Source: Liolophura sinensis (Eukaryota > Mollusca > Polyplacophora > Chitonida > Chitonidae). Taken from it: 64,000 bases of DNA. The stretch's first letter is position 1, and each line of letters starts with the position of its first letter. Shown in pieces: positions 27,905 through 61,051 of this stretch. A model generated the notes under the pieces. That model searched no databases. It saw only the letters and a list, made by a program, of their open reading frames with translations, and was not told where the DNA came from. Both the position numbers and the translations under genes were made by a program. The stretch is taken from the NCBI RefSeq assembly GCF_032854445.1, contig NC_088301.1:38737187-38801186 (forward strand), read 5' to 3'.

Positions 27905-28253
27905 GAATCACCCCGCCCACACCCGTCCAGAGAGTGGGGTTGTTGTGCATAGAGTGGTGTAGACCCAAACACACTGGAACGTCACGTGCTTTTGTCGGCC
28001 CTTTTCCCTTCTCACCCGAGCCGAGAGTCTGGGCGGAGACTGGATCAGATGTGGCCGTGACTCAGTGGAGAGCACTCGGATAACGGACTGACTGTTCACG
28101 ACTCCTTCAGCCAGCTCGCTTCAGCTGCAGGAGAAGCAAGTCACAAGCATAGGCTTTATACACAGCTTTGCCCCATCGGTTGGGCCCACTGGCTTGATTA
28201 TTACTCATAGCTGATCCCTCTAATAAAAGACACACATTCTGGCGAAAGGAACA
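27905..28253 (+). promoter_or_regulatory. Probable promoter and 5' UTR of the adhesion receptor
   Basis: This stretch is richer in GC than its surroundings. It carries CCCGCCCAC (about 27911), an E-box CACGTG (27983-27988), GGGCGG (about 28031) and an AP-1-like TGACTCA (28058-28064), and leads into the receptor start codon at 28254. The transcription start cannot be placed from sequence. Confidence 0.4.
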
Positions 28254-29722
28254 ATGGATACCAGAACAGTTTGGATATCTTTGGAATTGGTTTTACTTAC
28301 ACTCATCGTCGACAGTTCAGGTGAGTACATCCAAAAGTTTGTTTTTTTGTTAGCTTTTTTACCTTTATTTGTAATTTAAAAAAGATGATGTGGCTTACAT
28401 GTCGTCATTTTACGTAACATTGAATAAGCTGAAGTGACGAGTCCACATGGGGTGAATTAGGGTCGTATTTTCAAACGAACAGTATAGGCAAGGTAAAGAG
28501 ACAATCACTTCGTTTTAAGTTTTATGTGTGCATGAGAACACGCACTGGCTGGATATGCACTGATGTTCTGTACTATGTTTCTGTCTGTGTATTGACCATA
28601 TGGCTGATCCGACTGCATGTGTGTGTGCATGAAGACGGTATAAGGAGTTTGGAGGATATATAGTTCATATATATTTTATACCATACGTACCATATGCATC
28701 TGGAATATAGAAAGATGAATTACTTCTGGACGGGTTCTGAATGTACATGTAGGGTGCTTCATTTATCCATGACAGGACTGATCAATTCCAAGCATGCATC
28801 TGACTATAGGTAAAGTAATAAGGCACAATAAAGGCAATACGAGTCACACACCTCATCACCGCCTTGTCTTATGTCCTTGGTATATAACTAGGCCAATACA
28901 ATGGTGCTGAACAAAAAACCTGTTACCAGAATATTTTCTGACTCCAAGTACCAGTGTATGATAAGTATCGACAAAGTCGCATTAAGTTCCTCTTGGCAGA
29001 TTTAGCCTCGCCCAGCAAAGTATATACTTGTTGATGGTGCTTATTGATGGTGCCTGTTTAATATTTCCTATCATGCAGCATACAATTGTGCTCACTCGTG
29101 ATGGGGCTTGTTTGATAGTTCAAAGCGTACAGTATGCTGTTGTGTCCATCTCAACGTACAGCCAAACGTCCTTCATGGATATTATATTGACCCTAAGTAA
29201 TGCAGTTTCTAGGCCAAAAAGAGAGTTTTTGTTCCGTTTGTTTCACGGGGAATGTAATGTATAGCAGTGTGTTTATCAAACACGACAAAGCGATCCTTGC
29301 TTGATTTACAACTGTTTCCAACACTGAGATGACATCATGTACCCGCAGCTGGTACAGCCGTATAACCTGCTTTTTGAGAACTCCATGTACATTGTTCAAA
29401 AGAAACATGTGGAAGACAATTTAACCTTTAGATAAGTATATGTATTGTGTAAAAAAAACCCTTTTAGAGTTTGTAATGTAATGTTGTGTATGTATGTTAA
29501 ATCGGTGAAATTAGTAGTTTTGTTTTTGTGGTGCTCTTAAACCCTATACGAGGCCAAGACCTTGCATGCACATAAATCAAACTTTGTACTTAGTTCATGA
29601 CGCCCTATACTCTATGCAAAGAAGTCAGGATCTCGTGTTGTGGACAAAAAAGAACCTCCTCACTCTTAACCGTGCCTGGTTTGGTTATAGATAAATACAG
29701 ACACATTTTGTTCAAGGAAATA

Positions 29723-29820
<98 letters not shown>

Positions 29821-41800: not shown

Positions 41801-44800
41801 ATTTTATATCCAGAGTAAGTCATTTCATCATTTCAACTTTGACCTTTCCTTTCCGAAGCAGTCAATAAAAGTGTTGTGTCCCACACGCACTGTTGGAAAG
41901 TCAAGCTGATAGACTGCTTAAAGTCTCGTATCAAGACCTGTGTATATCATTTCCCATGATAACGGATGAATAAGAGCGTTGTAGAATACTTGTTGACACA
42001 AAGACTATCATCATCTCATTACTCTCGTAACAGTGAGAGAAGTTCCACTGTTTGGTCCACATGTCTGGCTTATTCAGGCCTTAAGTATTACGTTCAACTA
42101 GAGGTAATGAAGTGAAAACAAATTGACTAGCTATAACCAATTTTTGCTACATAAAATTCGGATGAAAATCTAATATGTCAACATTTATTTTGAATGATTT
42201 CCTCTCCAACATACCGAACTGAGATAAATAACCTTCTTTGCCGAAAATTATGGAAACCTATAGAGGGACTTTTGCGATCTTGCTATTTCATCTTGTATTA
42301 CAATGGTGAAGGCAGTAGTGCAATGAAATGGATGTAGCAGTGAATCACCTCACTTCGCAACTTATACCTTGCTTGGCTACCTTTTTACCTCACGTCTGCG
42401 CTACCTCGTCATGCATTATACAAATCCAGGTAGTTACGCCCGGGTAGCCAAGTAGCGAGGTTCGAAACAGATTTCGAAAATAGATTGCTTGTAAAGTTGT
42501 TGGATCACCTGAGTTATTTCAACGCTTGCTTCCATGTTTCCTAATATTTAAATGGTCGGCATGTGAAGATTTGTGTTTACTCCTCTGTGTAGTGTGAGTG
42601 TTTGTGTAAATATGCAAAAACAGGCACAAAATATTGACATTTCCGCAGGTAAAAATTATTATCTCGGGTGTGTTGATCATGGCATATGCTTATGGAAAAG
42701 CGCTGAGGTAAGAAAGTTGCCTCATGGATGTACCGGTACTTCCTGATGATACAAAATGTACGTTTGAACATCTTATTAACGACTATACGTGTAAAATACT
42801 GTGCTACGTAAACGCTCCTCCGTAACTTATTGCCAAGAATTTATGTGATCCAACATTTTGTCAACTAATAATGCCTTACTTCCATACAAAATGTGGTGCA
42901 AGTTATGTAATCTATATTATAATCTTAGCATAAATTAGCTTATCCACATATTGTTGATATTCGGTGAACACCCGTTCAAGTACCGACCGGGATATAATTA
43001 CTCTACTAGGTACACATAGTGTTACTATTACACCATTTCGAGCATTGGGTGTAAATAATGTGCATGGAAGCTTGACCTTCTCAATCTAACCCACATTAGT
43101 ACTCGATATTTCAATGTTGCTCATACTATATTGTTTTACATCCAGTACACCAGAAGCAAATAATACATGGAAACTTGCAGCATGCATGTTAGAAAAGCAT
43201 AGTTTACAGCTTTAATCTGATTTTCTGTGAAAGATTTTTGTCTGTCCTTCAGGCTTGCAAATCAGATGCGGTGATGGAGACTGGATTCAGGTCCATCGTG
43301 GATGCTATTGCTTTGAATTGGAGCAGAAAACGTGGTTGGAAGCCAAACAAGAGTGTCAAAATCGTGGAGGCTTTTTGCTTTCTATTGGCTCTGTGGCCGA
43401 GCTTGTAAGTGACCATCAGTCTTCTATCTTCACTGTCTGTTTCCATATTCATAAATAATTTAACGGCTGAAGGCCAAATTAGCCATGCTAATTCAGGTGC
43501 ATGGCGTTCTGATTTATAACGCACTCTTATATAGATCCGGTGAAATGGGTTCAATAATAAGTCATGTGATGGCTTTAAAATCAGCGATCGTGTAAATGGT
43601 ATATTAATGTCAGCATTACAAATGATTTACTTAACAAGTGGCTCTTAGTAGAAAAATTACAATGTAGCAAATAGTGACTAATGGACCAGCAAAATTTTAT
43701 CCGTTAATTCTCATTGGCAGGAAAATATCAGTAAAAAACTGAAACCTATGATAAAAGATGAAGATCATCTTAATTGGTGGGTTGGACTAGAGGCAGACCC
43801 TGTCCAAGCTGGTCGTTGGAAGTGGGCTGATGGAGGGGAGTTTAGTCGAAGGGTTAGGTAAGATAAGATAAGAGTTTGTAGTCCCTTGTTGTGAAATTTG
43901 AATCACTAAAGCAATAAAGCTTTGGGCTAAATATACTTGCCTTGTCACGATCAATATCCATAAACCAGTACATGCAATCCAGTCTTTAAAAAAATATTAT
44001 AGCAATGACAACCTGTTATAGTTGGTTAGATGATAAAAGCTGTGATTTTCTGATTTCTGTTCAGCCCTTGGAGTCCTGGGGAACCTAACAACGCTGGAGA
44101 CAAGGAGAAGTGCGTAGAGCTGAATTACAAAGGAAAACTCAATGATGCCGCTTGTTCAGAACTGAATCCATTTGTGTGCGAGAACATGGGACGTAAGTAT
44201 ATGGCAAAAATGTTGCTCAGTTTAAGTAGTTTTGCGACCAGCATCAATGTATTTTGACCTAAACTCAAGTTTTTTACTTTTTTTAACAAGGAAATAAATT
44301 CCCCAGCTCTCACTGTTTTCGAGGGGCTGAGGGTTGGGGGTGATGGCAAAACGTGGTCGGCGAAACTCGGGTTGTCCTTTACGCAGTCTAGCGTTCGTTG
44401 GTTTACCCAGAGCACTGCGTGGGTTCCTCCTCACATACATGTAAATGACCAGCACCTTAAAATTCTGGCGAAAATTTGTCTTTTGTCACATGAATGGTGA
44501 AAAATATGATGTGTAACAAGCATGAATGAAATAATCCGTCATTTTCTTTTTTACAGACCGGTTTCAACCAAAATTAACATATAACAATGTCCCGCTAGAG
44601 TTCATTCCAAAATTTATTATCTTCAAATTGTTTCTTTTTCTTCAAGCGCCTCTGGGTAGGATTGCTTGGCTGCCAAGTATGTCAAGCTCTGAAAATGCGG
44701 TCTCTTTGATAACTTTTGCACGTCATGCTATCCTATCAAATGTCCACATATTTGACAACTGATGTATGCAGACATACTGTAATTTCAGAAACTCTTATAC

Positions 44801-47800
44801 CTGTGATCATATGCATCTACAGAACGTTTAAGCAGATTCCACACCCGCGGCGTTAAATGTGTGTGTAATGTCTAAACATGAGCGTCTTTAAATCAGGAGA
44901 AAGGATGGCAACGATTGGGAGCCGCATACCGCGTGCACCTTTAAAGGCGAAAGCCTTCCGCACATATTTCCTATTTCGTCTATTGTTGTTGTGAACTCTC
45001 TTCCTCCATCATTCTGTCTTACTTTAACACGAGGTAAATATTTCCTACCTATATACCACTGCATGGGCTTTCATATATAAAGTTTTAAGCGTTAAGCCAT
45101 ACAATAAGGATCTTTCGAGTAAATGTGGTTTGGTATGCCAGAAAGCACTTTGATGTAAAATGACTTAACTCTGTCTAAACTTATCTTTTGTTTCTTGCTA
45201 TCCTGAAACGAACTTAATTGTGGTCTTCTAACATTAAATACAAAATGCTGTGTTTCAGAAAGCCTATATAAAAACAGGCAGAAATTAAATCGTAATTTCA
45301 GAATCTGATTCACGTTACCTTGCTGTTGATTTTACCTCCTGTCATTTATTGTCTCTTACCATAATTATATACGTGCTGAACATGTCAACCAAGGTACGTG
45401 CTATGCAATAAAAATACTGCTGAGTAAGATCATATCAGGAACAATCAGTCATGGGTTGCTGTTATTTTCAGATAAATTATAAACATATATATTTAAAACA
45501 TTTTATTAAGAAATTTTTTGACACTATAATACTCATCTATACCAGTTTTAGACAAACTTGAGCGAGGTAAATCTAATTAGTACTGAAACGGTTGTCTTGG
45601 TAATGTATATATAAGCCTGTTTATGCTCGCTTCCTCTCCGGCCGTATGTGGGAAGGTCTGCAGTAACCTGCGGATGGTCGTGTGTTTCCCCCCGGACTCT
45701 GCCCGGTTTCCTCCCACCAAAATGCTGGCTGCCGCCGTATAAATGAAATATTCTTTTGTACGGTGTAAAACACCAATCAAATAAATAAATAAATAAACCT
45801 GTTTATATCCCGTCCTCAGATACAACTACCACTGATATGGGCACAATCTTGACAACAACGGTACAGTCTTCAGCGGAGACCAGACAGACTTCGACGGAAT
45901 TGCCCGTGGAGACTGATCCGAGTACGGCCAAGGAAAACACGGTTTCACAGATTAGGTCGGAATCCACCCGGAAACGGGACACAAAGGGCCCCCCCACCAG
46001 AATAACAACGCCTCGTCTTCCCGAGGCTGCTCCCCCTAATACCACAGTACAATCCACAACTATCAGCGATGAGATGGAGATCATTACTGTACCATACACG
46101 GAGAAGATAAACGAGATAATCACAGATCTAAATGTAAGAGCAAAAAGATTGTGATTTAATTACTAATATCGAAAATGAAGGTACAAATGTCAGGCTTCAA
46201 ATTATATGACAATCAGGGTAAAAATACACAGTTGTGATTTTTGCATGGTTCAGTCTGTCTCGTATTTAAAAGTTATGCAAACTGAAACATACAATGTTAT
46301 ATTCTCCAATAAATATACTGATATATGTGAGAAGCATTGTTTTAGCAAGATGTACACATTTTGTTCTTTTTTAGGAAAAACAAAGTGCTAAAACCGTGGC
46401 AAAGGCTGCCTCCTCATTAGCAACGGTAATCACTCAAAAGAAAATCCTTACATCCAAAGAGGTTGCGTTAACAGCTCGAAAACTTAGTGAATTGGCAACC
46501 AAGGTTGATTTGACTAATAGCTCTGCTAAAGAAATCGAAGAGGTCGTATCGGTAAGTCTGTGTTCTTGTTTTTTTTTTAAATATATATATATATATATAT
46601 ATATTAGAGGGGTTTTTCTCTCTTTTTTGTCTTTTGGGGTTTGGGGGGGGGGGGCTTTGGGGTCAGTACTGACTTCCAGGGTTTCTAGTTTAATAGTTAC
46701 TTCTCCATGACATAAAACTCTCTTTTGTCGTCGGAGGTGCATATAGAGAGTTCTGAGGGCTGGGAGATTTATCACCGCCTATACGAGCTAATTATTTGAA
46801 AATCCTTGTTTTACCGCATTTTAGATGATGCCAGGACTGAATTAAACTTTTAGGACAATTTGTGGGAGGGGAGGGGGGAGGGGTGATAGATTGCCTGTGT
46901 GTCGATCTAACTACATGGTTAGTGTTATTACTATACACTTCACGAATAAGACATTTTTGATTACCTGTCTTCGTCAAAATTGAATACATACATTCTTCTT
47001 TTTCAGGAAGTGTTTAAGGCAACAAGTAACCTCATGTCTACAAACAAAACACAGACGTGGTCAGAGTTATCAAGAAAAGATCAGCGTGAGTCGGCTGAGT
47101 TAATTCTGCAAGGAGTTGAAAGCAGTGCTTTTGTCTTTGCCAAGTCTATTGAAAGCCCTGATACAATCAACAAGAAGGAGGATAACATCGGTGAATTTTC
47201 CTTTTTTTTTCATATGGAAAGTTAGGAATAAAGGCTTGTCTTGGATACTATAGTGTCAGAATGAGTTCACTAAATTTTTATACTAAATTATTTAACCCTT
47301 AAATTTTATTTCTTTTGTTGGTCAGTTTGCCAAGGAATGTTTATCCCGTTTAATACATTTATTAAAACTGTTATAACAGCTATAGTGTTTCTATGATTTA
47401 ATGTTTCAGAAATGGAGTTACAAGTTCTAGGGCCAGAGCAGTTAAACAAATCGAAAATCGTATACGAACCAGAGGATAAATCTGATGTGTTCGTTCTTCC
47501 AAGCGACATGCTGAAAGACAATGAAGATGGGGGTAAGGCTTACGAAAATGAATAATTAGTTAAGCGTTCTAGGATTCATGCAGTCGCTGTATCAACGTAT
47601 ATAAATTCTGATATTTCAATTACTCGTTCATTCAAAATCTGTAGGCATCACCAAAACATTCAGATGTTTCCTCTCTTTTATAATAGGAGAAAGAAGAATC
47701 GCCTTGCTTTGTACGCGTGGAACGTAATCTCAAGTCCCCTGCTTTCACTAGCTGTGGGGCATTGGTGATAATAAGTGGTCGAGGATGCTCGTGTGACCCT

Positions 47801-50800
47801 TTGCGCAATCTTACGTTTCTTGAAAACCACGTGTCTTCCACCGATATGGTCTGCACATTTGTTCATCACTTATGAGTTGGGAAGTTCGTCAGTAATGATT
47901 GTCATGAGGGGGGCCCCGGTTTCGCCCACCCATAAGCCTGACGACCTTAAAATAAATATAAATAAATAAATGCCCATAAAAGTGACTCCCATCGTAGGCC
48001 TAAATGTGAATAATTTATGAATGTACCGTTAAGTGAAAACCAAATAATAAAGATAAATAATAAGTATAATTATTAATAAGTATTTAATTCTTAAAACTTT
48101 ACAATCCTTCACAGGCCTCACCAAGGTGGTTTTTGTCACCTACCATAAAATTGCGGACTTGCTGCAGCCAGAGGCCGACAAAAGTGGACCGGATGAAGGC
48201 GAGGTAGACCGCCCGTCTGAAGCTCAGCAACTTGTCGTTTCTAACGTTATATCCGTTTCCGTCCTGGGAAAGACATTTCAAAACTTGGAAACACCCATTA
48301 AATTCACCATGAAGCATACTAAGGTAAATGAAGATGGATAATTCATTTTCTTTTTATTTCATCATGGTTAAACGGATCAGTTTGTTGATTTACAATTGCC
48401 TTATGCTGAATGTCACTTGCAGGAATTACATTACCAGTGTTCATGTAAACATGACTTGACAGTACAAGTGATGCCAAAATGGCAACATTTGTTTGTTAAA
48501 TCTTAGCCACGGCACTTTCTTTTGAGCTTAAGGTCTTTATATTACGTATATTACAGTAGAAATATATAAAAAGCTACTTATATATTTTTTGTTTTGTTTC
48601 CAGAAAACTCAGAGCTATCCAGGAAGTGGCAACCCATCTTGTGTTTTCTGGAAATTTGCCAAGAGGTAAGTGTGAAACCTATTACGCAATGCCCTTATAC
48701 ACTGCCATAATATTTATTGTAAAGATCGAGCAAAGGTTGCCTCGTGGTGTTTGAAAACACTGCGAGGTAGAAGATAGGGGATTTGCTTCACTTTCTTACT
48801 GCAGATCATTTTATAAAAGGGAACTATGTGAGATGGGAATATCCTTTAATGAAGTTTCACAGCATTACGAAGGCTTCCTAATTTATGGAAATATGTAAGG
48901 TTCATGATTAGAAAGCAAATGGAAACAACTTGTAATCGATGCTCTTTGATCTAATATATTTCGTGTGAATTGTAAAAATAAATTCATCCAGGTTGGTTAA
49001 AATGATCAAGAGACCATAGTACATCATATGTTCCACACCACATCCTTACTTTTTGCATTCACTTTTTTAGGAATTGTGGTCTTAGTTATAATTAACTTGT
49101 TTGGCAATCTTATGATCACAATAGTTGAGAGAGAGAGTATCAAATTCCTAATTTACATACTTTAGCTCACCGTTGATCGCCTGTTATTCGTGCATATGAT
49201 ATTGATGAAAACATCCCCATATGCACGTGTGTCCACTCGCATGCATGCTACGAATGCGTGGAATTCTAGGCATCTATTTAACTGTGTATAACACACAGCT
49301 TTCACATTACTTCTCGCCAATGCGCACGCAAGGCCAGGTTAGTGCTAAATGCTGACAGACATTGTTCGTCCAGGATTTACGAGGAGTATGTGGCAGGAAA
49401 GCATCCGCAGGATATTAATATGTGTTTTGGGTGGTCAGTTACACCAACATATTCTTCGTCTGGGTGATGAAGTGGGTTTACACTTTTTACCACGTGGGAT
49501 TGTTTTTCTTCTAGCCTTTAGCTGTCTGCAGTGCCTATTTTCGTTTCTCTCCATGGAAGATTTGGGATTATTTACTGCTTGGCTTGCAAGCTTTACTCAC
49601 CACCTTTCCACAGTGGAAGAGGGCTTGTTACCCGCTGCTTTTTAAGTATATACATGATGAGTTAAAATAAAATCCTGACTGAGGTAAATTTATAACAGGC
49701 CTGATTTCAACGGTAATACCTGTGACCATTTGCCACATATCACGCTGTCGTCACTGCTATGATGGGTTTACCTTCTACCATGTGGTCTTTTGTATTTTAT
49801 AAAGTTGCATAATTTAATGTCCCTTCGTCTAGGTATAATATACCTAAAATCTTCAGGGTCCTCCTAGAGTGATTTCTGTACAAGGATACTTGCTTTTCCC
49901 TGTTGGCTATCTACATTATTTTCAAGTTGGATCAACAAAATGGATAAAACTGGCTACAAGAATGGATTTTTTTGTGCGTACACGTGTTTGTATATGAGAG
50001 AAATGGTATACAGTGACAGGTGACATTAAAGAAACAGAATTTAACAGTTCTTTGATACACAATGTGCAGAGTTACAAAGTTAAATAAGGCAGAAACCCAA
50101 GCAGCTGTTGTCTATTGTGACCTACTTAATTTGTTTGTTTGTTGTCATTGTGAATAATTGGATAAAGTTCGGTAAGATTTTTTACCATAATGCCTGTTGT
50201 TTGAAATGGGACAATGTGGTTGACATGTGTGATCACATGTGACATTATCAGATTCGGTGAATAAAACTGAACATTAAATGAGAAGCTCAGGTAAGAGAAC
50301 TTCGTATACAGATCATGTAATCAGAGTTTTAAGTCTACCAATAATTACCTTTTAATGTTTACCTGACATTGTTGCCGCTATCTCGGCTAACCGAACCACA
50401 CTGTTGTCATGAAACGGGATAACATGCTCTTGTCCCAACACTAAATTGCTGAAAGTCGTGTTGCGCTATTGGTCATTGTCAAACTCTGTTAAAACACGTC
50501 AAAGCTAAATGCAAAGCTAAAGGTATAAACCATGGAACCAAATCAGTGGGAACTCAGTGAGCATTACAAAAGGAGAGAGCATTCTGATTTATCTGATTTA
50601 GCTGTTGTGTCATGTGATCTAAACAAAGTCTCCAATCCATGCCAGCTGGCTAAAATCCGCTATTGCCAAGCATTAAGTATAAAATTGCAAATCTTATACA
50701 CGTTGGCCATTATGAATTCCCAAATCCTTAAGTCACATAGCTGTTTCCGTTTCCTTTATTTTAATTCCAAGAAGTCAAAACCTCTCAAGCATGTCAAGAG

Positions 50801-53800
50801 GATTATGAAGTTGACTTAGGATTAGCAGATATTTAATCTTAAGTTTAAAATGTCATGACAAAAATGAAAATCAAATGGTTTAGGTGAAACAGAAATAAGG
50901 TCACAAGTAAAGATAGCGCTAAGATTAAGGTAGCGTTTTTATCCCGGTCTGAACCACTTTCATCGATACGCGTATATAGCTTCCCATCTCACTTTAAGAC
51001 GCCTTTCCTGCTATAAGTTAATTTATATATGTGTTGGCTATCTGCATTTACCTCACTTCACAGGAATCAATTTGAATTTTGCTGTTTTAAAGGTTTGACA
51101 TCTGTGAAATCTCACAATGAACCTGATGACAGTACCCTATCGCATCAATGTACATGCATATGTGTACCCATATTTAATCTTTATGTTTATATTGGTCACA
51201 GCTCTGAAACGTCCGGGAAATGGTCAGAAGAGGGCTGTGGAGTGGTCAAGACCAACTCATCTCACACGGTTTGTGAGTGTAACCATCTGACCCACTTTGC
51301 CGTGCTCATGGATGTCCAGGGTGTCAAGGTATCATCATGAACAGCCGGTATTTTCGTCAATAGTGAGATGACTATATGTGGTGATTAATGGATCCCAGCT
51401 TTGATAAAATATTTAATCGTGAATGAGGCGAAAATTTTTGAATATTGATGAGTTGTATAGGGGTATAGTGTAAAACAGTGTATAGGTTTTTACCTTTTTT
51501 AAATGGCTGCTGAAATTCGATATTTGTTATCAATAGATTGGCACTTGACAGTGGTACTCTTGCAAGAATTATGGTGATCAGTGGTGGCGACATCATAAAG
51601 TACATTTTGTCCGTTTTGTTTGTTTATTTATTCGATGCTAATTTATTTCCAATTGTATTTATGCTTATTTAGCTGACATATTAATTCGTCTGTAATTTTC
51701 TCCTCGAATTGTGTGTTATAAATGTGTCACCGATAACTTATACCTTTTGAAAAGCCCGCTCTTCTTCAGTGTTATATTAAGGTCATGATAGCATTTCTCT
51801 TGTCCAGAGGCGAGTTGTTCAAAAGTGTATTAAAAGCCAAGCCACGTTTAAATGATAATGGACTAAAGCTAATACCGAGCTAACATCCTAATACACCCTT
51901 GAACAACTGAACCGTGAACAATATCAAATGCATGCAGTTCTAGGGTGTATCTGTGATGTAATCGCCAGGTATCAGACGACCACGATATGCCTCTACAGCT
52001 TATCACTTACGCAGGATGTATTGTGTCCGCCGTATGTTTGGTCATCAGCTGGCTTACTTTCCAGTTTCTTAGGTAAGTACCCAATCATGTTATTCAGTCA
52101 ACTCCGGCTAAAGTTTCTATATCACAAAGGTACAATCATAAGTGCACAGATGAGTGTTTTTTTTTATTTGACTGAAGTTTTACTCTGTTCTCAAGAATAT
52201 GTTACTGACACGACAGGGCCAAACATCATGTTGAAAAGAAACCAAGTAGAAAATAGAAAAAAAAACCAGGACCTTCCGCAGGCCATCGACAGACCTTTGA
52301 CGTACCGCAGAGAAACCCAGCATGGATGCACAGAAGCATTGAGAAATTGTCCAGTGTGTTTTAATTCACTGTAGGGATTACTGGGAAATAATAATATTAA
52401 CATTTGTACAAACAAAAAAGTCTTAACTTTGCTTTGACCTGAGACTATGTGAGACAACAACGGCATCTTTATGCGGCTAAACTATCACCTTGTGCATGTA
52501 TATAGACGGGTGTGTCGATGGATGAAGATGTAGACCAAGATATAGTACTCCCTGTACATGACATGCAATCTCAGTTAACGTTACCGGATTACTTATCGAA
52601 AATGCCCAGCCAAGCGCTCGTACCCGATGGAATATCATCTTACCGAGTAGTATTTTTTCTGGAAAACTCAAAAACTCTGTCGTGGTTTGATAAACAGCTC
52701 GTCTCTGTGTAGGAGGGCTAGACGGAAATGGGACACCAATGTAGGCCCATTCAAAAGTGTATTCCTACATTTATTTTATAAGTATACATTTATTTATGAG
52801 TCTCATTGCATTTATCATGCTAAGTTCATTAAAAAGGTTTATAGTTGTATAAGGTAATAAACCTAGTCATGGCGAAAAAAACATTTAAAAAAATATTATA
52901 TGCGTCCTTACCTTGAATGCAGAAACGAAAGCGATAAACCCTGTGCATTAATTCTGCTATAAAAATGTGTAATTTATGTCTCCGTTTTAACTCATATATT
53001 AAGTAGTGTATAGATATTTAATATATAATATAAATAACCTACATATGACCTTGGTTCCGCCAGGGCATGTCTACGAGAGATAGACGACAGTTACAAGACA
53101 TAATACAAAGTTTATAAGAATTAGTATATTTTCCTGTTCGCCGTGCTACGTCATTGTTGTCTAGATAATTTTAGCCAAATACGACTCGTCAAAGAGATGT
53201 GTCATTCATTAGTATAACTGGACTTAAGTTTATCAAACTTATGCCGATTTTCAACAAGGTTTTATCTTTTGTCATATCTTTGTCCAGGTGTCTTCATGGC
53301 GAACGCAACTCGATCCACAAAAATTTAGTTTTCTGCCTATTCGTGGCAGAAATGCTGTTTTTATTTGGAATCGACAAAACATGCAATAAGGTAGGTCAAA
53401 GTGCTTGCTTTATTCTGGAAGATTGAGTTTTATTTCACCTCACGAAGTTTCTTGAGGCAAAATAACGTGTTCTGTAACCAAAAAATAATCCTCGATATGC
53501 ATGCTTGGAGTTTTTATTTTAATTTTATTAAATATTTTTATACTCGTGTTGAAATGATATCAAAAGTCTTTTCTGCCTCTTGCAATTCCGTATGCAGATT
53601 CTTTGCGCAGTCCTGGCAGGATTGATGCACTACTTTTTCCTGGCCTCTTTTACATGGATGTTTTTGGAAGGCGTTCACATCGTGGTAATGATAGTCCAGG
53701 TTTTTGACGCCGCTAAATCGCCGCTCCTTTGGTACTACTTGGCTGGTTACGGTAAGCGTAATATAATTGCTTAAAGGAAAAGACAACTCAAGATCGAAGT

Positions 53801-56021
53801 AGGCACCTCTAGCTAGCCAACTTAAAAAGTATTTCTCTGGTCGGAAGTGGTAAGGTCTGCCAGAAACCTGCGGATTGCCGTGGGTTTCCGCCGGGCTCTG
53901 CCCGGTTTCCTCCCACCATAATGGTGACCGCCGTCGTATAAGTGAAATATTCTTGAGTACGGCGTAAAACACCAGTCAAAAAAATAAATTAATAAGTAAA
54001 TAAATAAATAAAAACTATTCATTAAAATACCAGCATTGATATTTTTACATTTTTTTCAAAAGTGTTCAAGGCATTCAAACACTCTTATTCTACGGTGGAA
54101 TTTATGGACCATACTATCAGTGTTTAAGAACTCTGACCTCAAAGAAAGTTTTTCCAACTGTAAACGCGACATTAAATGTTTTTACCAGATTTGTAAAAGA
54201 TTACCGAAATAATGTTCTGAACAAATCCTTCCTTCTGGTGAGCGTAAGGAAAAAAGGCGATGTGACGTCAGAGTTTATTAATACTGTCAGTGTGGTCAAT
54301 ATGGTTCACCGTAGAATTCAAACATTTTAATATCTTGAGTGCTCTTCAAACATTTAAAAAGATAAATGACGGTATTTTTTAAACATAATTTTCAGTTGTC
54401 TGTCTGGTGAATCTTACCTCATATTATAGCTTATTTTGCTTTAACAAACAGGCATTTATAAATGAAACGGTCTTGACAAATGGGGTACTTCAAAAGTACT
54501 GCAGTTATACATGCATATAAAGCACAGTGACACAATGGAGATGTTCCATGGCCACCTGTGTGCGTAGTAATTATCATAAATTATCAAATTCACGACTTCA
54601 GTACTTTATGTATGAAGCTGAAATTTTGCAGTCTTGTGTTTTCTAAAATCGAGTCCTCCACCCATTCGTGCAAGCATAAACAATTCCCTGTGGGTGTATA
54701 AAATGTCCAGCGGCGTAAAGAAAACACCTATGAAATATATAACTAAATGAACATATAAACAAGACAAATGTATATATAATGGAGAGATTAAACATCTAAT
54801 TTACGACATCCACAACATCAAAGGATCGATTTCGACTCCACCACACTAGTAAATTAGGCTAGAGAGCACCAGAATAGATTTGTTTCTTTGTTTGTATTTT
54901 TAGGGGATTAACGTCGTTTTTAGAATTATTTCGGTCATATCAGGGCGGCCCATCCTTGGCCGGACCCAGTTCCGACATATTTATGGTGCTGCCTCAATTG
55001 TACACCATGCCGGAGACACCAGACACGACGTCAATCTAGTCACATTATACTGACACCGGTCGACCAGTAATTGGTCTATTGCAAAGACGCCTACGAATTA
55101 ATATGTGATTTACAACCTACTATATGTGGTTAAATTTGATGTGTCATTTGTTGATACAATATGCAAAGATTGTACCAGTCATCATTCATTTATGAGCAAA
55201 AAATTAAGTCATGGAAGAAGTAGCGTGGTAAAATTGTTGTCTCCTTTTACTCTATATAGGCATTCCTCTGACCATCGTATCAGTGTCAAGTGGTGTCAAC
55301 TATGAGGGCTATGGGACAGAGCATTAGTAAGTCAGCTAGAAAGTTAAGCAATCTTTGTAATATGGACTTAGTAATCTGACATCAAGGTTTTCGTGTGTAT
55401 TACATGACAATTCAGAGAGGCGCATAAGTCGCCAGGTGAGCTAATTAGCGACATCCGGTTGCTATCTTTAACGGCACAATTGCAATTCATGTATTTTGTT
55501 GGCTGGAAGTTTTGTATTTAAAAGTAGGCTAGCTAGACTGCCAGAGGAAATAAAGATGGGATACTCGACTTTTAATATGCAAACAAATATCCCATTATAT
55601 ATGTATAGAATAAAATAGAATGAAAACAAAACATGAAATAATTCGCAGTTTGTATTATAGGCTGTTAGTCTATGGTGTTTTAACTTTTGGTTGTATTGCT
55701 TGATTAGTAACGTCGTTTTCATGAGGGTCCTCGCTGGCTCAGAGGTTAATAAAGGGCTGTCCGGACCTCATTTTGGTCGCGGCTTTAGGATGGTTCAGGC
55801 ACTTGGTACTTGGGGAAGGGCGGTGGTTTATTCCATGACAGCTGACAGCTTACAAATGCGGTCGCTATGAGTTCAAATCCAGCTCATGCTGTCTTCCTCT
55901 CCGGCCGTTCGTGGGAGGTCTGCGGATGGTCGTGGGTTTCCACCGGTTTCCTCCCACCATAATGTTGGCCGCCGTCGTATAAGTGAAATATTCTTGAGTA
56001 CGGCGTATAACACCAATAAAA

Positions 56022-56068
<47 letters not shown>

Positions 56069-59000
56069 ATATTTCTTAACGCCGCTAAAGATCAAGCAAA
56101 TAAATAATTTTTCATCAACTATATAAGAATATGAACGTTTTGGAGGTTTTGTTAACGCTTCCTGGACATTTCAGTTGTTGGCTGTCCGTGGATAATCTGT
56201 TCATCTGGAGCTTTGCGGGACCCGTTGCGGTCATCCTCCTGGTAAGTACCTGACCCCCAATAAAGAAATCTTCCAACATGTTCCTTATACCTAGATAATC
56301 GGGTGAATGGGGAAAGGGCTATATGCATTATGAACCATCATATCATTCACGTCAGTATATTTATTGGAGAATTCACTTCATAGTCAACATTGTGAACAAG
56401 CTAAAATTCCGCATAAACATTTTAGGATTGTCAATCTTCATTTTACTTATATACTTATATTTGACTGTGCATGGTCTGTAGTTGGTTTCTGACATTAGAG
56501 ACTCAGAGGCATCTGGGATCCATCATATGGTATATGGATTGCCGGGTGCTGTCAAATTAAGTTTAACATCACAGACGATGGGATAATGACTTTTAAATGC
56601 CCTTTAAAACTTGCAAATGTCGCCGGAGTTATGTCCGGTTCCTTCAACTCTCGCCAAATTAATTCGAGCGTTCTTGAAATTCAAAATGCCATAGAAATGG
56701 GACCCTGACTCGCCAGTCTCATTAGACGAGGTTAAGACTACTGAAAATCCTATTAATCTTTATATTTCATCCGTCGAGTTGCTGCCGATAATATCTTTTT
56801 AAGTATCAACCGTTTTAAATGTTAATGCTGAATAAAGGCAATTCGTTGAATGGCAAAGGAGATTTTATGACAGGCGTGTGGTCTAAGCAAAGACGCGTTT
56901 TGCGCATGTACGTCTGTGGCATGGTTCATTTTATTCTAAATAGTTCTTATTTAATTAGCATAGCAGAACGAAGTCCATATGAATCAGTTTCCTTAGTACT
57001 AGCTCAAATACACGTAGAATAAACATAGAATATATTTAGATCATCTTCCACGGTATAACACCATTACATTTAACATAAATTTTTCGTTTCTAAAATAACT
57101 GGTTAAATTGACTTGGCACAGGATTTGAATGCCCATTCCTTGTATCTTTTCATCACCATTGAAAACTGTTAACTGTTGATCCTGATATCTTAATGCTTAT
57201 ACCTTCTTAGTTCTTTGGTTTAATACTCTTTTGGAAATCAGCCGTATGACTATTGACCCAGAACGTCTATTCTGGTGACGGTTGGCTGGTCTATGTGAAT
57301 GTTTGTTCCGAGGCATATATGCTAAATTTTGCTTATTATCTCAATAACTAAGTGTGGTTAAGATTTCTTGATATTGTATGCGTATGTTAAAGAACTAGAC
57401 CTACATACTTTTGATGCTCATGCAAAATTTTCCATTTGCATATGATTTATGATAGGCTGTAAGCCATTAACAGATGAAAGTGACTCGAGGTGGTCACATG
57501 AAACAAAGTCCTATAGGATATTATTCCATACATCCAGGAACAAAATGGAAGAACAGTGAGCCGTATTCAATACACTGACTTAAACACAGGGTTTAGTCTG
57601 AATGTTATTATAGTTTTATAGTACTTTTTCATTTTTACTTGAAAACATTAGGAAACATCTGTTTCTTCAAAACTGCTGAACGGCATTCTGTGAAATTCTC
57701 CATATTTGAACTCACTGCGCAGGCCACTTTGTAATACAGTATATGAGGGCTCAACAGTGAATCCATATATATGGAATTTACTTGCCTTTGGTAGTTTTGA
57801 AGATACCATGGCAACAAGCCAAATATGAACTTGGATGACCTGAGAGACCAGGTCCAAGTCCGTTTGCGCTGAAAACGGACTGTATTAAATAGCGATTAGA
57901 GCCTTAACCTATTTTCTCAGGGCCGGGTCCATGTCCGGCTTGTTACCATTATATTCTCAAAAAGAATTAGGCGAATTCATTGAATTTTCAAACATACATT
58001 CACTGGTGTTTTCTATACGTTAATATTTGAGTGTTCGGCCCTTTTATAGACAGTGCCTCTAAAACTGTAGGCTGGGCAGTAATGTATCAAATACTAGTTT
58101 TTGAGATTGCAGTGTTAAATATTAATTGTCCTGAGATGTAGAGCCGAGAGGTTAAGATCTTACGTGCGACCTGTAATGCACAGCTGTTTTTATCTATTCT
58201 CATTTTAAAGTCTATTGCAGAAGTGCTAAAATGTCACTATTTCTGTGAACAAGATTAGAGTGTTAGTGACGAGGATATCTTACATTTGATTATATGATAT
58301 AATGAAAAATGTTAAATAAAAAATGTCGAATTTTTTGAAGTCCAGGGCTTGATGACGCGTCGGGTGCTCTATTTTAAGGAATACGTGGCTGGCCCAAAAC
58401 GCTTTCGCCCAACATTTATGCTAAAGTCAGTTTTTGTTCGTTATCTGTGAGTGCTATTGTAATGGATAACATTAGGGGCATTTATAGTACATGTATGTGT
58501 GCTTAAATGAAGACATTCTCTGACATGTAACGTGTCTTCTCCTTTATACAGCTCTCTGCTTTCGCCATCCACTGAAAAAGGGCTGGGCAACAATATTCGA
58601 GGAGCAATGTGTGTGTTTTCCCATTCAAATCAATTAGTTAATTAAACATATTGCCAGAAAATATAGCATTGTGTATGCTCGACCATGCATTGGCTGGTAT
58701 ATAATAAAGGTATTCACCTTTATCTGCCCATAGCTTTGTATGTGGCCATAGCTTTGTATGTGACCATAGCTTTGTATGTGACCATAGCTTTGTATGTGGC
58801 CATAGCTTTGTATGTGGCAAATTTATGGGGAATTATGTTTTCTTGTTCTAAGCTGGGATCATGTTTTTGTTTTAAATCGCAGCTTGGACCAAACACTTTT
58901 TGTTACTGTTACCTCATTAATTCTAAAATGAATTGCAATGTGCATTTCTTCTGCCTATGTGTGTGCTTTAGGCCTACATGTGTAGCGAAATATGAGAGTT

Positions 59001-61051
59001 GTATCATAATGGAATATGTCCTTATTCTAATAATTCGAATTATCCCATTGTCGCAATATTACTCGGAAGCAATGAAGCCTTGTCAGTATTTCAGGTTTTT
59101 GTTTGGACATAACTTTGTACTATTAAGAATGATCGAAAGTTTCAGTCAACTACACCATTAAATTAATTGTACCACGCACATTGCAGCAGATTAAAAAAAA
59201 GGACACGCATCCTGTTTAGGTATCTCTGGTCTTATTTTTTTTTTAACGTTTCATATACATGATTTGTGGAAAATGCTGCTCTGTATACGTTGGAAAGCGT
59301 GTGGTGTGATGTAGAATCATCAGTTTGGACAGTGTTTACTAGAATAATGAGTCGAAACATTTTGATCAACCTGTTGATTTGACTGTTTCATGAATGAATA
59401 TATCTACATATGCATACACGTGTTGACTGTGATAATGTAACTTACTTACAGGTGAACGCTACCATCCTCACGTATGCCATGAGCACTGTGTGTAAACATT
59501 CGGAGTACGTCATTAAAGAGAAAACCCGCTCGGATAGTACCAGGTGAGTTTAAGATGATTGTGTCAGTATTCGTAGTGTTGGTCCATAGTTTACCAACTG
59601 AAATATATTTTCTTACAGTAATAGTCACCTTGAGGCGGAATTTGGCTTTACTTTTAAACATGAAAGATTTAAGTTGGGGCGATTTAATTCACTCATGTCC
59701 ATAAACAACTGTTTATATATAGGCATATTCAGGGTGTTCAATAACCCCGCCTTCACATTTCACACATGTACGCCGTCCCGACTCTTTTCTATTACCTCGT
59801 CGATGTGGCCGAGGTGGTTAGCATGCCAGCATGTTGCAATGACACAGGCGGATTTCACCAATGCGGTCGCTGTGAGTTCAAGTCCAGCTCATGCTGGCTT
59901 CCTCTCCGGCCGTACGTGGGAAGGTCTTCCAACAACCTACGAATGATTGTGGGTTTCCGCAGAGTTCTACCGGTTTCCTCCCACCATAGTGCTGGATTAT
60001 CGTTTATGGCCGTTTTAGGAGCCTAATACGACTCTGAGAGCCAGTGTTTTCCACCTATATGGTCATATTTTTACGTCTTTACACTGGATTTTATAGTCCT
60101 ACGTCGGGCACTCTGGTTTCGTGTATGGTAATAGTCAAATATTCTGGATCTGACATATCTGAGCGGGCAGATAAATAAAGGTTTTCACTGTATGGAGACG
60201 TTTAAACGCGGTTATATTGTTACCTCTCTGACGACATTAATCAATGATACATTTTTCAGGGCTTGGATCCAAGGTGCGCTGGCGTTAGAGGTTCTGCTGG
60301 GTCTGACATGGGTGTTCGGGTATTTCTATATAAACGACAAGATGGTCGCCATGGCCTACGTATTCACTGTGCTTAATAGCCTTCAGGGTCTCTTCATCTT
60401 TTGTTTCCACTGTCTCCTCAATAATAAGGTATATACATCAGTTAATAGTAATGTTTACATTTATAAAATTTATTTCACTTGATAAAACACGCCTTTTGGC
60501 TATCTACACGATCTGACTCTTACACGAAAGATCTGCATTCGTCCGCGAATCCGATATTGCAAAGACTATCAATCTCCTTTGCTTGTGACTTGGCCTTTAA
60601 TGAGAGAACACATACAAACGTTAGTTGCCATGGTTTCAGGGTATTTTATCTGAGGTGTCATATCTGGTGGCCCTATAGATGTGAGGAAATGTTGCCTTCC
60701 TGCTATACAATGAGAGCAAGAAAATGTGCATAATATTGCGTATGCTTACTTTATATTCAGTATATACATATACATCTTAATTGCCGCAAAATGTCAACGA
60801 CAAATAACACTTCAGTTGGCTGTATACTTAACAGCATAGATTTAATCCCGACTAAAAATACTAATTTTAGAACTACATTTATACTTCTGACAGTTGTCTT
60901 GCAAAGTTATCCTTTTACAATTTCGTTTCAACAGGTGAGAAAGGAGTACAAGAGGGTGTTGGACATATCTCGCGTCACTACGTCGACAAACACGCGTAGT
61001 GCCACAAGAAGCAGCCTGCATAGAAAGCAAGATCCTTCCTATGAAATGTAG
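28254..61051 (+). CDS. Adhesion GPCR: C-type lectin domain, stalk, GAIN/GPS, latrophilin-like 7TM
   Basis: Nineteen coding exons give 840 aa: 28254-28320, 43253-43404, 43721-43857, 44065-44192, 45820-46133, 46375-46551, 47007-47190, 47410-47532, 48115-48323, 48604-48665, 51202-51328, 51999-52072, 53288-53390, 53598-53751, 55260-55326, 56175-56241, 59452-59543, 60260-60428, 60935-61051. All phases join. Residues 1-22 look like a signal peptide. Residues 24-160 are a C-type lectin domain with WVGL (93-96), EPN (125-127), ND (145-146, LND where WND is usual) and the paired cysteines; EPN plus ND suggests calcium-dependent mannose-type binding. Residues 162-266 form a Ser/Thr/Pro-rich stalk. Residues 267-555 are a GAIN domain ending in a GPS with C510, C530, C542 and C544; self-cleavage is expected between L547 and T548, leaving a tethered agonist starting THFAVLM. 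Residues 561-802 hold seven helices close to latrophilins (SIHKNL, GIDKT, FTWMFLEGV, FIWSF, GLTWVFG), with the C622-C694 disulfide pair. The tail is short (803-840). It should act at the cell surface. Exon 1 rests on phase, signal peptide and context; an extra small exon in the 14.9-kb intron 1 cannot be ruled out. Confidence 0.93.
29728..29819. repeat. (AT)n microsatellite
   Basis: A near-pure run of AT dinucleotides of about 90 bases with one phase break. Open frames through it are artefacts. Confidence 0.97.
33600..33900. repeat. Small minisatellite, about 30-bp unit
   Basis: About ten imperfect units built on GACTAACTGTCCATC and AGATTGACTGACTAAC follow one another, with spacing between about 25 and 35 bases. 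It is non-coding and in receptor intron 1. Confidence 0.8.
34040..34395 (+). repeat. Dispersed repeat family C, two tandem copies
   Basis: Two copies about 180 bases apart share AAAAGGTACTGCATGTATTG-like starts, a CATCG.TGAT block, and TGTGTATATTAATTACCGTA. Further relatives occur near 15.7 kb and 54.5 kb, so the unit is both dispersed and locally duplicated. It is non-coding. Confidence 0.7.
34851..35005 (-). mobile_element. SINE copy in receptor intron 1, truncated head
   Basis: On the minus strand the tail AAATAAATAAATAAATAAAT is preceded by the body (ACAAGAATATTTCACTTAT on the + strand; ACCAGCATTATGGTGG). The tRNA head is missing at the right end. Confidence 0.88.
37560..40770. repeat. 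Large minisatellite array with 32-bp and 90-bp units
   Basis: About 3.2 kb is built from variants of one root unit close to GACAGGATGGTAAGCTCACA plus CAGAGCAGTA. Four zones can be seen. From 37560 to 38280 the units are degenerate. From 38281 to 39180 there are ten indel-free 90-bp units, each made of 32-, 36- and 22-base variants. From 39190 to 40260 the units are 32 bp with shorter forms of about 24. From 40330 to 40600 they are another 32-bp variant (GACAGGATGTTAACCTCACA). Because 90 is a multiple of three, two overlapping minus-strand frames of 343 and 370 codons stay open; they are not genes. Confidence 0.95.
41729..41814 (+). other. Isolated candidate first coding exon inside receptor intron 1
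   Basis: ATGGCGGCAGCTGCG in a good start context (AAACATGG) opens a 28-codon frame that ends at a strong donor, CAGA/GTAAGT. Without splicing the frame stops one codon later. The peptide (MAAAAKTVGKDIMEYYPYLS and on) matches nothing I recognise. Its donor phase (2) does not fit the receptor's second exon, so it is not an alternative receptor start. It may be a retained fragment of another gene or chance. Confidence 0.2.
44300..44460 (+). repeat. Worn interspersed repeat in receptor intron 4
   Basis: Resembles 47745-47970: both have a GGTGAT/GGTCG region, a TT.CGCA.TCT.ACGTT-like block, a GGTTTAC/GGTTTCGCCCACC region and end in GACCA/GACGACCTTAAAAT. Probably an old SINE relative. Confidence 0.4.
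45625..45797 (+). mobile_element. 5'-truncated SINE next to the receptor exon 5 splice site
   Basis: Body and tail of the main SINE (CTTCCTCTCCGGCCGTATG, CGGTTTCCTCCCACCAAAAT, an AAAT-repeat tail) without the tRNA head. CCTGTTTAT occurs on both sides (45616-45624 and 45798-45806), a 9-base target duplication. The right copy lies 13 bases before the acceptor AG of exon 5 (45818-45819). Confidence 0.9.
46575..46660. repeat. AT microsatellite and poly(G) run in receptor intron 6
   Basis: An (AT)n run near 46580-46604 is followed by a G run of ten or more near 46645. No other structure is seen. Confidence 0.9.
47745..47970 (+). repeat. Interspersed repeat in receptor intron 8
   Basis: The stretch ends in GACGACCTTAAAATAAATAT and an AAAT tail, as SINEs do, and shares blocks with 44300-44460. 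The head (GGCATTGGTGATAATAAGTG) is not clearly tRNA-like. Non-coding. Confidence 0.5.
48666..51201. other. Receptor intron 10 (2.5 kb), splitting the GPS motif
   Basis: This intron separates the first GPS cysteine block (CVFWKFA) from the rest of the motif. I see nothing recognisable inside it. The open frame at 49349-49645 matches nothing I know and has no splice support. Confidence 0.6.
51813..51908. mobile_element. 96-bp palindromic MITE in receptor intron 11
   Basis: The left end AGTTGTTCAAAAGTGTATTA and the reverse complement of the right end, AGTTGTTCAAGGGTGTATTA, agree at 18 of 20 positions. The short spacer encodes nothing. Small elements with GTTGTTCAA ends are widespread in marine invertebrates. 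Confidence 0.75.
52155..52345 (-). mobile_element. Worn SINE copy in receptor intron 12
   Basis: TTTTACTCTGTTCTCAAGAA and TTCCGCAGGCCATCGACAGA match the reverse complement of the main SINE with many changes. It starts about 80 bases after the exon 12 donor. Confidence 0.55.
53838..54012 (+). mobile_element. 5'-truncated SINE in receptor intron 14
   Basis: Well-kept body and tail: CTGCCCGGTTTCCTCCCACC, CGTCGTATAAGTGAAATATT, GAGTACGGCGTAAAACACCA and an AAAT-rich tail. The tRNA head is missing. It lies under 100 bases after the exon 14 donor. Confidence 0.9.
54485..54640 (+). repeat. Dispersed repeat family C, copy in receptor intron 14
   Basis: TTCAAAAGTACTGCAGTTAT, CATATAAAGCACAGTGACAC and GTACTTTATGTATGAAGCTG follow the order seen at 34.2-34.4 kb. 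Diverged, non-coding. Confidence 0.6.
54895..55080 (+). mobile_element. Diverged relative of repeat family B in receptor intron 14
   Basis: It begins with GGGGATTAACGTCG and later has CATTATACTGACACCGGTCG, ACCAGTAATTGG, matching the order in the copy at 63.14-63.48 kb (GGGTTTGACGTCG; CATTATACTGATACGGGTCA). The middle part differs, so it may be another subfamily. Confidence 0.5.
55725..56071 (+). mobile_element. Long SINE copy with AAAT tail in receptor intron 15
   Basis: A tRNA-like head (CTCGCTGGCTCAGAGGTTAA) and a second box-B-like block (TATGAGTTCAAATCCAGCTC) precede the standard body and the longest tail in the window, about fourteen AAAT units (56017-56071). The tail ends about 100 bases before the exon 16 acceptor at 56174. 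Confidence 0.9.
56242..59451. other. Receptor intron 16 (3.2 kb)
   Basis: Apart from the 18-bp tandem repeat at 58728-58818 I recognise nothing in it. Confidence 0.6.
58728..58818. repeat. 18-bp tandem repeat, five copies
   Basis: CCATAGCTTTGTATGTGG/A repeats five times with only a G/A change at the last position. The unit is a multiple of three, so frames stay open on both strands (IALYVA or HTKLWP repeats); these are artefacts. Confidence 0.95.
59803..59995 (+). mobile_element. SINE with well-kept tRNA head in receptor intron 17
   Basis: GTGGCCGAGGTGGTTAGCAT is a Leu/Ser-tRNA-like box A region and GCTGTGAGTTCAAGTCCAGC holds box B. The body follows (CTTCCTCTCCGGCCGTACG) but stops after CTCCCACCATAGTGCTGG, without the usual 3' tail. 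Confidence 0.85.

Follow-up and report, generated by a model that had tools for sequence, protein, structure and literature searches.

A predicted latrophilin-class adhesion GPCR with a C-type lectin head in the chiton Liolophura sinensis

The window, a stretch of 64,000 nucleotides from Liolophura sinensis (C7:38737187-38801186 in a 609-Mb assembly of 632 contigs), contains a receptor gene on the plus strand at 28254-61051. The exons of this gene are listed in Table 1. The hand-built gene model consists of 19 exons joined in phase, from the first base of an ATG at 28254 to the last base of a TAG at 61051. All 18 introns are of the GT-AG type, and the predicted product is a protein of 850 amino acid residues that is encoded in one frame with a single terminal stop. 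An earlier note on this DNA had given the same span and the same number of exons. An elongin C exon is located upstream of the receptor gene at 1863-2060 on the plus strand (PDB 1vcb, E = 2.5e-25). In intron 1 of the receptor gene, related units of 32, 86-90 and 121 bp form a large minisatellite at 37852-40611, and the long minus-strand frames found between 37925 and 39554 lie inside it. A SINE-like repeat at 45600-45797 stops 22 bases 5' of exon 5; with this copy counted, the window has 11 matches to it (E <= 1e-6).

Table 1. Exons of the predicted receptor gene, in positions of the window
Feature	Position	Strand	Content	Evidence
Exon 1	28254..28320	+	Start codon and signal-peptide-like sequence, out phase 1; sole phase-1 signal-peptide-like candidate in 28001-43252	
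Exon 2	43253..43404	+	C-type lectin domain, N-terminal part; phase in 1, out 0	
Exon 3	43721..43857	+	Lectin domain, middle; out phase 2	
Exon 4	44065..44192	+	Lectin domain, C-terminal part, with EPN and (L)ND motifs; out phase 1	
Exon 5	45820..46133	+	Thr/Ser-rich stalk without cysteine	
Exon 6	46375..46551	+	GAIN start	Pfam, PDB match
Exon 7	47007..47190	+	GAIN	Pfam, PDB match
Exon 8	47410..47532	+	GAIN	Pfam, PDB match
Exon 9	48115..48323	+	GAIN	Pfam, PDB match
Exon 10	48604..48665	+	GPS, first part (CVFW)	
Exon 11	51202..51328	+	GPS, second part, with motif HL/T and predicted tethered agonist THFAVLM	
Exon 12	51969..52072	+	TM1	
Exon 13	53288..53390	+	TM2	
Exon 14	53598..53751	+	TM3	
Exon 15	55260..55326	+	TM4	
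Exon 16	56175..56241	+	Second extracellular loop and TM5 start	
Exon 17	59452..59543	+	TM5 end and third intracellular loop	
Exon 18	60260..60428	+	TM6-TM7	
Exon 19	60935..61051	+	Short cytoplasmic tail (38 codons) and stop	

When the joined protein is searched against Pfam, a C-type lectin domain (CTLD; Lectin_C, residues 46-158, E = 1.2e-19, 71 bits against a curated cut-off of 22.6), a GAIN domain (PF16489, residues 275-477, E = 1.1e-22, 81 bits against 26.5), a GPS (PF01825, residues 508-553, E = 1e-17, 65 bits against 22.5) and a secretin-type 7TM (7tm_2, PF00002, residues 568-802, E = 1.4e-64, 218 bits against 20.6) are detected, and no further Pfam family is detected in the 850 residues at E <= 0.001. 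The search for these four domains, which the earlier note had proposed as a check, thus places all of them above their curated cut-offs. Their order and the uninterrupted frame agree with its description of in-phase exons that encode a signal peptide, a CTLD, a Ser/Thr stalk, a GAIN domain with a GPS and a 7TM. The stalk corresponds to residues 162-266, of which 33% are Ser or Thr and none is Cys. With a secretin-type 7TM and a GAIN domain that carries a GPS motif in which HLT is present, the predicted protein has the features of an adhesion (class B2) GPCR.

The top PDB matches of the lectin domain are proteins of the mannose-receptor family. Its best single-domain match, as the best of the five alignments shown, some of which are partial, is a CTLD of C-type mannose receptor 2 (5ao5 residues 350-478, 62.8 bits). 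In mannose-type CTLDs, calcium and sugar are bound by the residues of EPN, by the glutamate before the cysteine and by the residues of ND. In the alignment, EPN, the glutamate before the cysteine and ND are all in register with the CTLD of C-type mannose receptor 2. The usual CTLD motif is WND; the domain reads LND, with a leucine at the position of the tryptophan. Cysteines are located at 57, 135, 149 and 157, in such a way that both conserved disulphide pairs are present. The EPN, the ND and the two disulphide pairs are those of a calcium-dependent mannose-type C-type lectin. Judged from these conserved residues, the lectin head is probably sugar-sensing. The exon block that encodes it is symmetric, with phase 1 on entry and phase 1 on exit, and it is therefore a module of the kind that is moved by exon shuffling. 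Formation of the gene by exon shuffling, as had been proposed, is consistent with these phases, which are those expected for a shuffled block.

The GAIN domain and the 7TM were compared with PDB chains by phmmer. For the best chain of each receptor, the 7TM gives 293 bits with ADGRL3, 285 with ADGRL2, 220 with ADGRE5, 206 with ADGRL4, 201 with ADGRE1, 185 with ADGRD1 and 118 with ADGRG6, and the GAIN region gives 118 bits with ADGRL3, 91 with latrophilin-1 and 60 with ADGRG6 as the next, in a ranking in which only receptors with a PDB chain could compete. The GPS reads CNHLTHFAVLM, as compared with CNHLTNFAVLM of ADGRL3, and the 7TM stretches GLTWVFG and NSLQGLFIF are close to those of ADGRL3. 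Among PDB chains, the 7TM is thus closest to ADGRL3 and ADGRL2 and the GAIN domain to ADGRL3 and latrophilin-1, which is the affinity of a latrophilin (ADGRL). The latrophilin-type GAIN/7TM core claimed in the earlier note is borne out, with ADGRL3 as the best PDB match for both parts. The cytoplasmic tail consists of 38 codons; the tails of latrophilins are usually much longer.

SUEL, HRM and olfactomedin domains have no Pfam match in the 850-residue protein. To cover exons outside the model, the introns at 28321-43252, 44193-45819 and 48666-51201 were scanned against Pfam in the three frames of the plus strand, with stops read as X, and neither these three domains nor any other credible domain was detected in them. 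Neither the N-terminal SUEL/rhamnose-binding lectin nor the HRM domain of latrophilins is therefore found in the protein and the three scanned introns, and the claim that the gene has no SUEL or olfactomedin domain stands over the same range. Matches to DUF1889 and DUF6761 in intron 1 are taken as artefacts, because no stretch passes alone and because they lie inside the minisatellite at 37.85-40.61 kb.

When the genome is searched with the GPS profile (38 of 38 candidates scored), 21 matches, seven of which form one array at C7:1.645 Mb, are found at 15 places. Among the four further GPS places examined, the best match to the receptor gene in GPS and 7TM is another latrophilin at C7:1.64 Mb. 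On the strand of its GPS exon, at a distance of 11-13 kb upstream, SUEL matches above the curated cut-off are present (in two of three frames), and none is found in the next 10 kb further upstream. We infer that these SUEL matches belong to the latrophilin gene at C7:1.64 Mb. The exons from GPS to TM7 have closely similar lengths in the receptor gene of the window and in this latrophilin: 127 and 124 for the GPS, 104 and 104 for TM1, 103 and 103 for TM2, 154 and 154 for TM3, 67 and 67 for TM4, 67 and 67 for the TM5 start, and 169 and 169 for TM6-7. Thus, six of the seven exons that can be compared have the same length and the remaining one differs by a single codon; the phases are equal, with exon junctions 10/11, 16/17, 17/18 and 18/19 of the nine GPS-to-TM7 junctions readable from one side only. 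No counterpart of the exon between TM5 and TM6 was detected at the latrophilin locus. Over the 217 columns of the 7TM common to four proteins, the receptor of the window shares 128 identities with this latrophilin, 120 with ADGRL3 and 115 with ADGRL2, the latrophilin shares 134 with ADGRL3 and 132 with ADGRL2, and ADGRL3 shares 166 with ADGRL2. Over these columns, the latrophilin at C7:1.64 Mb is nearer to the vertebrate latrophilins than the receptor of the window is. Given these exon lengths and phases, we read the receptor gene as a latrophilin paralogue that has diverged and bears a CTLD head.

At the latrophilin locus, a minisatellite with a unit of 115 bp (7.2 copies with 95% matches, at about C7:1645172-1646003) repeats the 5' portion of the GPS exon together with its acceptor, and seven of the copies match the GPS family. 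Because 115 is not a multiple of three, an upstream copy of the GPS exon would shift the frame if it were used.

Signal-peptide-like exons were searched for by a simple hydrophobicity-plus-donor scan (ATG, hydrophobic core and donor) at two thresholds, rather than by a trained predictor. Regardless of the threshold, exon 1 is the only phase-1 candidate in 28001-43252. In 2301-28000, no phase-1 candidate is found at the stricter setting and one, with a donor score of 1.1, at the looser setting. In 44193-46374, the region before the GAIN exons, no candidate of any phase is found at either threshold, and the GAIN half thus shows no signal peptide of its own. The scan is not blind, because its any-phase run at the stricter setting gives four candidates at two separate places in the 7.2-kb lectin-to-GAIN stretch of another locus, at C7:59.87 Mb, and six at the looser setting. 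Exons 4, 5 and 6, which encode the end of the lectin, the stalk and the start of the GAIN domain, are joined in phase. The presence of one candidate upstream and the absence of any before the GAIN exons favour one gene. We estimate a probability of about 0.7 that a single gene codes for an adhesion (class B2) GPCR, a latrophilin paralogue that has diverged and in which one mannose-type CTLD on a Thr/Ser-rich stalk replaces SUEL, together with the mechanism and the origin proposed below. The LND in place of WND, the short tail, the low scores of some donors and the alternative 3' exon described below count against this reading.

The same region also bears on an unlikely arrangement in two transcription units, in which exons 1-4 would encode a short lectin, and exons 5-19 would be part of another adhesion GPCR whose start is not seen. 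At 44557-44762, behind an acceptor, lies a possible alternative 3' exon that is open for 68 codons, encodes a hydrophobic run and is closed by a stop codon at 44760-44762. It makes a short isoform of the lectin possible and might also belong to the lectin unit. Nine AATAAA or ATTAAA strings in 44193-46374, four of them in the tail of the repeat copy (45780-45797), would likewise suit the end of a first unit. However, the second unit would have to begin in a region without a signal-peptide-like exon of any phase, although an exon whose donor scores below the looser cut would escape, as would 3 of the 18 donors of the model (by a crude matrix, by which 5 of the 18 score 2.0 or lower), and the in-phase junctions of exons 4, 5 and 6 also argue against two units. 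It is still less probable, and indeed very unlikely, that the gene is an ordinary SUEL latrophilin of which the SUEL exon has been missed. The core is of the latrophilin class, SUEL domains can be divergent, and the domain scan covered three of the 18 introns; nevertheless, a scan of the same design detects SUEL near the latrophilin at C7:1.64 Mb and none in the three introns of the receptor gene, and a signal-peptide-like exon is already located directly before the lectin exons.

Somewhat more probable than a missed SUEL exon, but still improbable, is an adhesion or endocytic lectin for which the 7TM serves as a non-signalling anchor. The very short tail would fit such a role, and placozoan CTLD-GPCRs are treated under scavenger receptors, with both signalling and endocytosis, in the available text of PMC6321704; the conserved tethered agonist and the resemblance of GLTWVFG and NSLQGLFIF to ADGRL3 speak for a 7TM that signals. 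Identity with polycystin-1, in which a CTLD and a GPS also occur together, has a negligible probability. The membrane part of polycystin-1 is not a secretin-type 7TM, whereas that of the receptor gene is (E = 1.4e-64). PKD repeats, REJ and PLAT have no Pfam match in its protein, and polycystin-1 adds PKD repeats and REJ to the CTLD and GPS that the two have in common. A polycystin-1-like locus with a CTLD, PKD repeats, REJ and a GPS is located elsewhere, at C1:22.30 Mb (C1:22295000-22312000, minus strand). A polycystin-1 identity is rejected because of the secretin-type 7TM and the lack of a PKD, REJ or PLAT match.

The preferred reading, a CTLD-headed latrophilin paralogue, is based on the domain order, the intact GPS motif, the latrophilin class of the GAIN domain and 7TM, the exon lengths and phases common with the latrophilin of the same genome, and the phase-1-flanked lectin block, all of which are present in the sequence. 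By analogy with the families concerned, the lectin would bind glycans of the mannose, GlcNAc or fucose type in a calcium-dependent manner on a neighbouring cell, the matrix or a microbe, and the stalk would keep it away from the membrane. The GAIN domain would cleave itself at HL/T. When the lectin-stalk-GAIN fragment is pulled or lost, the tethered agonist THFAVLM would be exposed and would activate the 7TM core, which would signal to a G protein. The gene most likely originated from a duplicated latrophilin in which the symmetric 1-1 lectin exon block was placed after the signal-peptide exon.

The Lectin_C profile gives at least 120 matches in the genome, a lower bound because 150 of 376 candidates were scored. 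A Lectin_C match lies on the same strand and no more than 12 kb upstream at 3 or more of the 15 GPS places: the window, the polycystin-1-like locus and C7:59.87-59.89 Mb. At the last of these (C7:59868000-59897700), a CTLD (E = 9.2e-11, with two exons joined), a GPS (E = 1.9e-15) and 7tm_2 (E = 8.9e-38) are detected. Its partly joined 7TM is best matched by ADGRG6, G2 and G4 at 117-125 bits, with ADGRL2 at 108, and the joined piece of the GAIN region, from a partial gene model, has no GAIN match. This locus may be a second CTLD-GPS-7TM gene with an ADGRG-like 7TM. An intron divides its CTLD at a position that differs from both splits in the receptor gene, which would fit independent capture. 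We tentatively suggest that adhesion GPCR cores have acquired CTLDs on two or more independent occasions in this genome, namely a latrophilin-class core in the window and an ADGRG-like core at C7:59.87-59.90 Mb, though the odds are somewhat against it. If this is true, and if the cases in amphioxus, in placozoans and in a nematode are added, CTLD capture would be a route by which animals that lack adaptive immunity have repeatedly obtained glycan-sensing GPCRs.

A CTLD-headed latrophilin-type gene of molluscs or other lophotrochozoans was not found in the literature, the coverage of which was partial and gives weak evidence of absence. In a snail, adhesion GPCR L2 and C-type mannose receptor 2 are reported as separate genes (PMC8791074, available text), and the main text on bivalve C-type lectins (PMC10140915) contains no GPCR, 7tm, GPS or latrophilin. 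In the available text on sponges, a latrophilin-2-like GPCR is described with no CTLD joined to it (PMC6208332). The words 'lectin' and 'C-type' are absent from the main text of PMC12716839, 'GPCR' and '7tm' from that of PMC8260672, and the word lectin from PMC4302439, which gives no precedent. The available part of PMC13197933 contains no precedent for a CTLD-headed latrophilin, nor does that of PMC3269628, which deals with rhamnose-binding lectins and names a CTLD in a figure legend. GPS and 7TM are named beside CTLD proteins in legends of immune-receptor domain figures (PMC11797021, PMC8242945), the available text of which does not make evident whether they belong to the same protein. A 7tm_2 type 'GPRX' with Lectin_C is mentioned in the available text of PMC8687355. 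According to the part of the review of invertebrate latrophilins that is available (PMC6422961), most of these receptors have RBL and HRM, but HRM/RBL may also be degenerate or missing, and EGF, Ig, LamG and FN3 are examples of extra domains; C-type lectins are not named in its section 9.

The earlier note had regarded polycystin-1 as the main precedent for a CTLD combined with a GAIN domain. A CTLD and a GPS do occur together in polycystin-1, but the account is incomplete, because, as far as the available texts go, CTLD-headed adhesion GPCRs are published for amphioxus (PMC2246102) and placozoans (PMC6321704), and a CTLD with a latrophilin-like 7TM for a nematode (PMC9085898). In 2008, adhesion GPCRs that carry a Lectin C-type domain were described from amphioxus and called unique among GPCRs, and the lectomedin group was reported as missing in that animal (PMC2246102, available text). 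Like the receptor gene, the amphioxus LectinC adhesion GPCR has an N-terminal CTLD (PMC2246102), but, unlike it, it has further extracellular domains (PMC6321704, available text). In placozoans, 28 of 36 CTLD receptors are reported to be adhesion/secretin GPCRs; they combine an extracellular CTLD with an adhesion-family 7TM as the receptor gene does, but differ by their large expansion (PMC6321704, available text). In Bxy|Bu_11124 of the pinewood nematode Bursaphelenchus xylophilus, two CTLDs are combined with a GPS and with a 7TM that is annotated as latrophilin-like invertebrate; a CTLD, a GPS and a latrophilin-like 7TM are thus present in both proteins, but the nematode protein has two CTLDs and the receptor gene one (PMC9085898, available text).

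CTLD-headed adhesion GPCRs are therefore known from a few other animals, and the receptor gene looks like a clean new example rather than a new kind. Because the general idea is already known, the gain is one more clean case, possibly with a second in the same genome. The gene provides a compact example of a GPCR with an adhesive head that resembles a mannose-type calcium lectin, in a genome in which a latrophilin apparently with SUEL is kept. It shares with the latrophilins ADGRL1-3, Cirl and LAT-1 a GAIN domain, a GPS and a 7TM of one class, but differs from them in that a C-type lectin replaces SUEL, in that olfactomedin and HRM have no match and in that the tail is short. Comparison of this gene with the SUEL latrophilin would show how far the class of ligand can be swapped on one signalling core.
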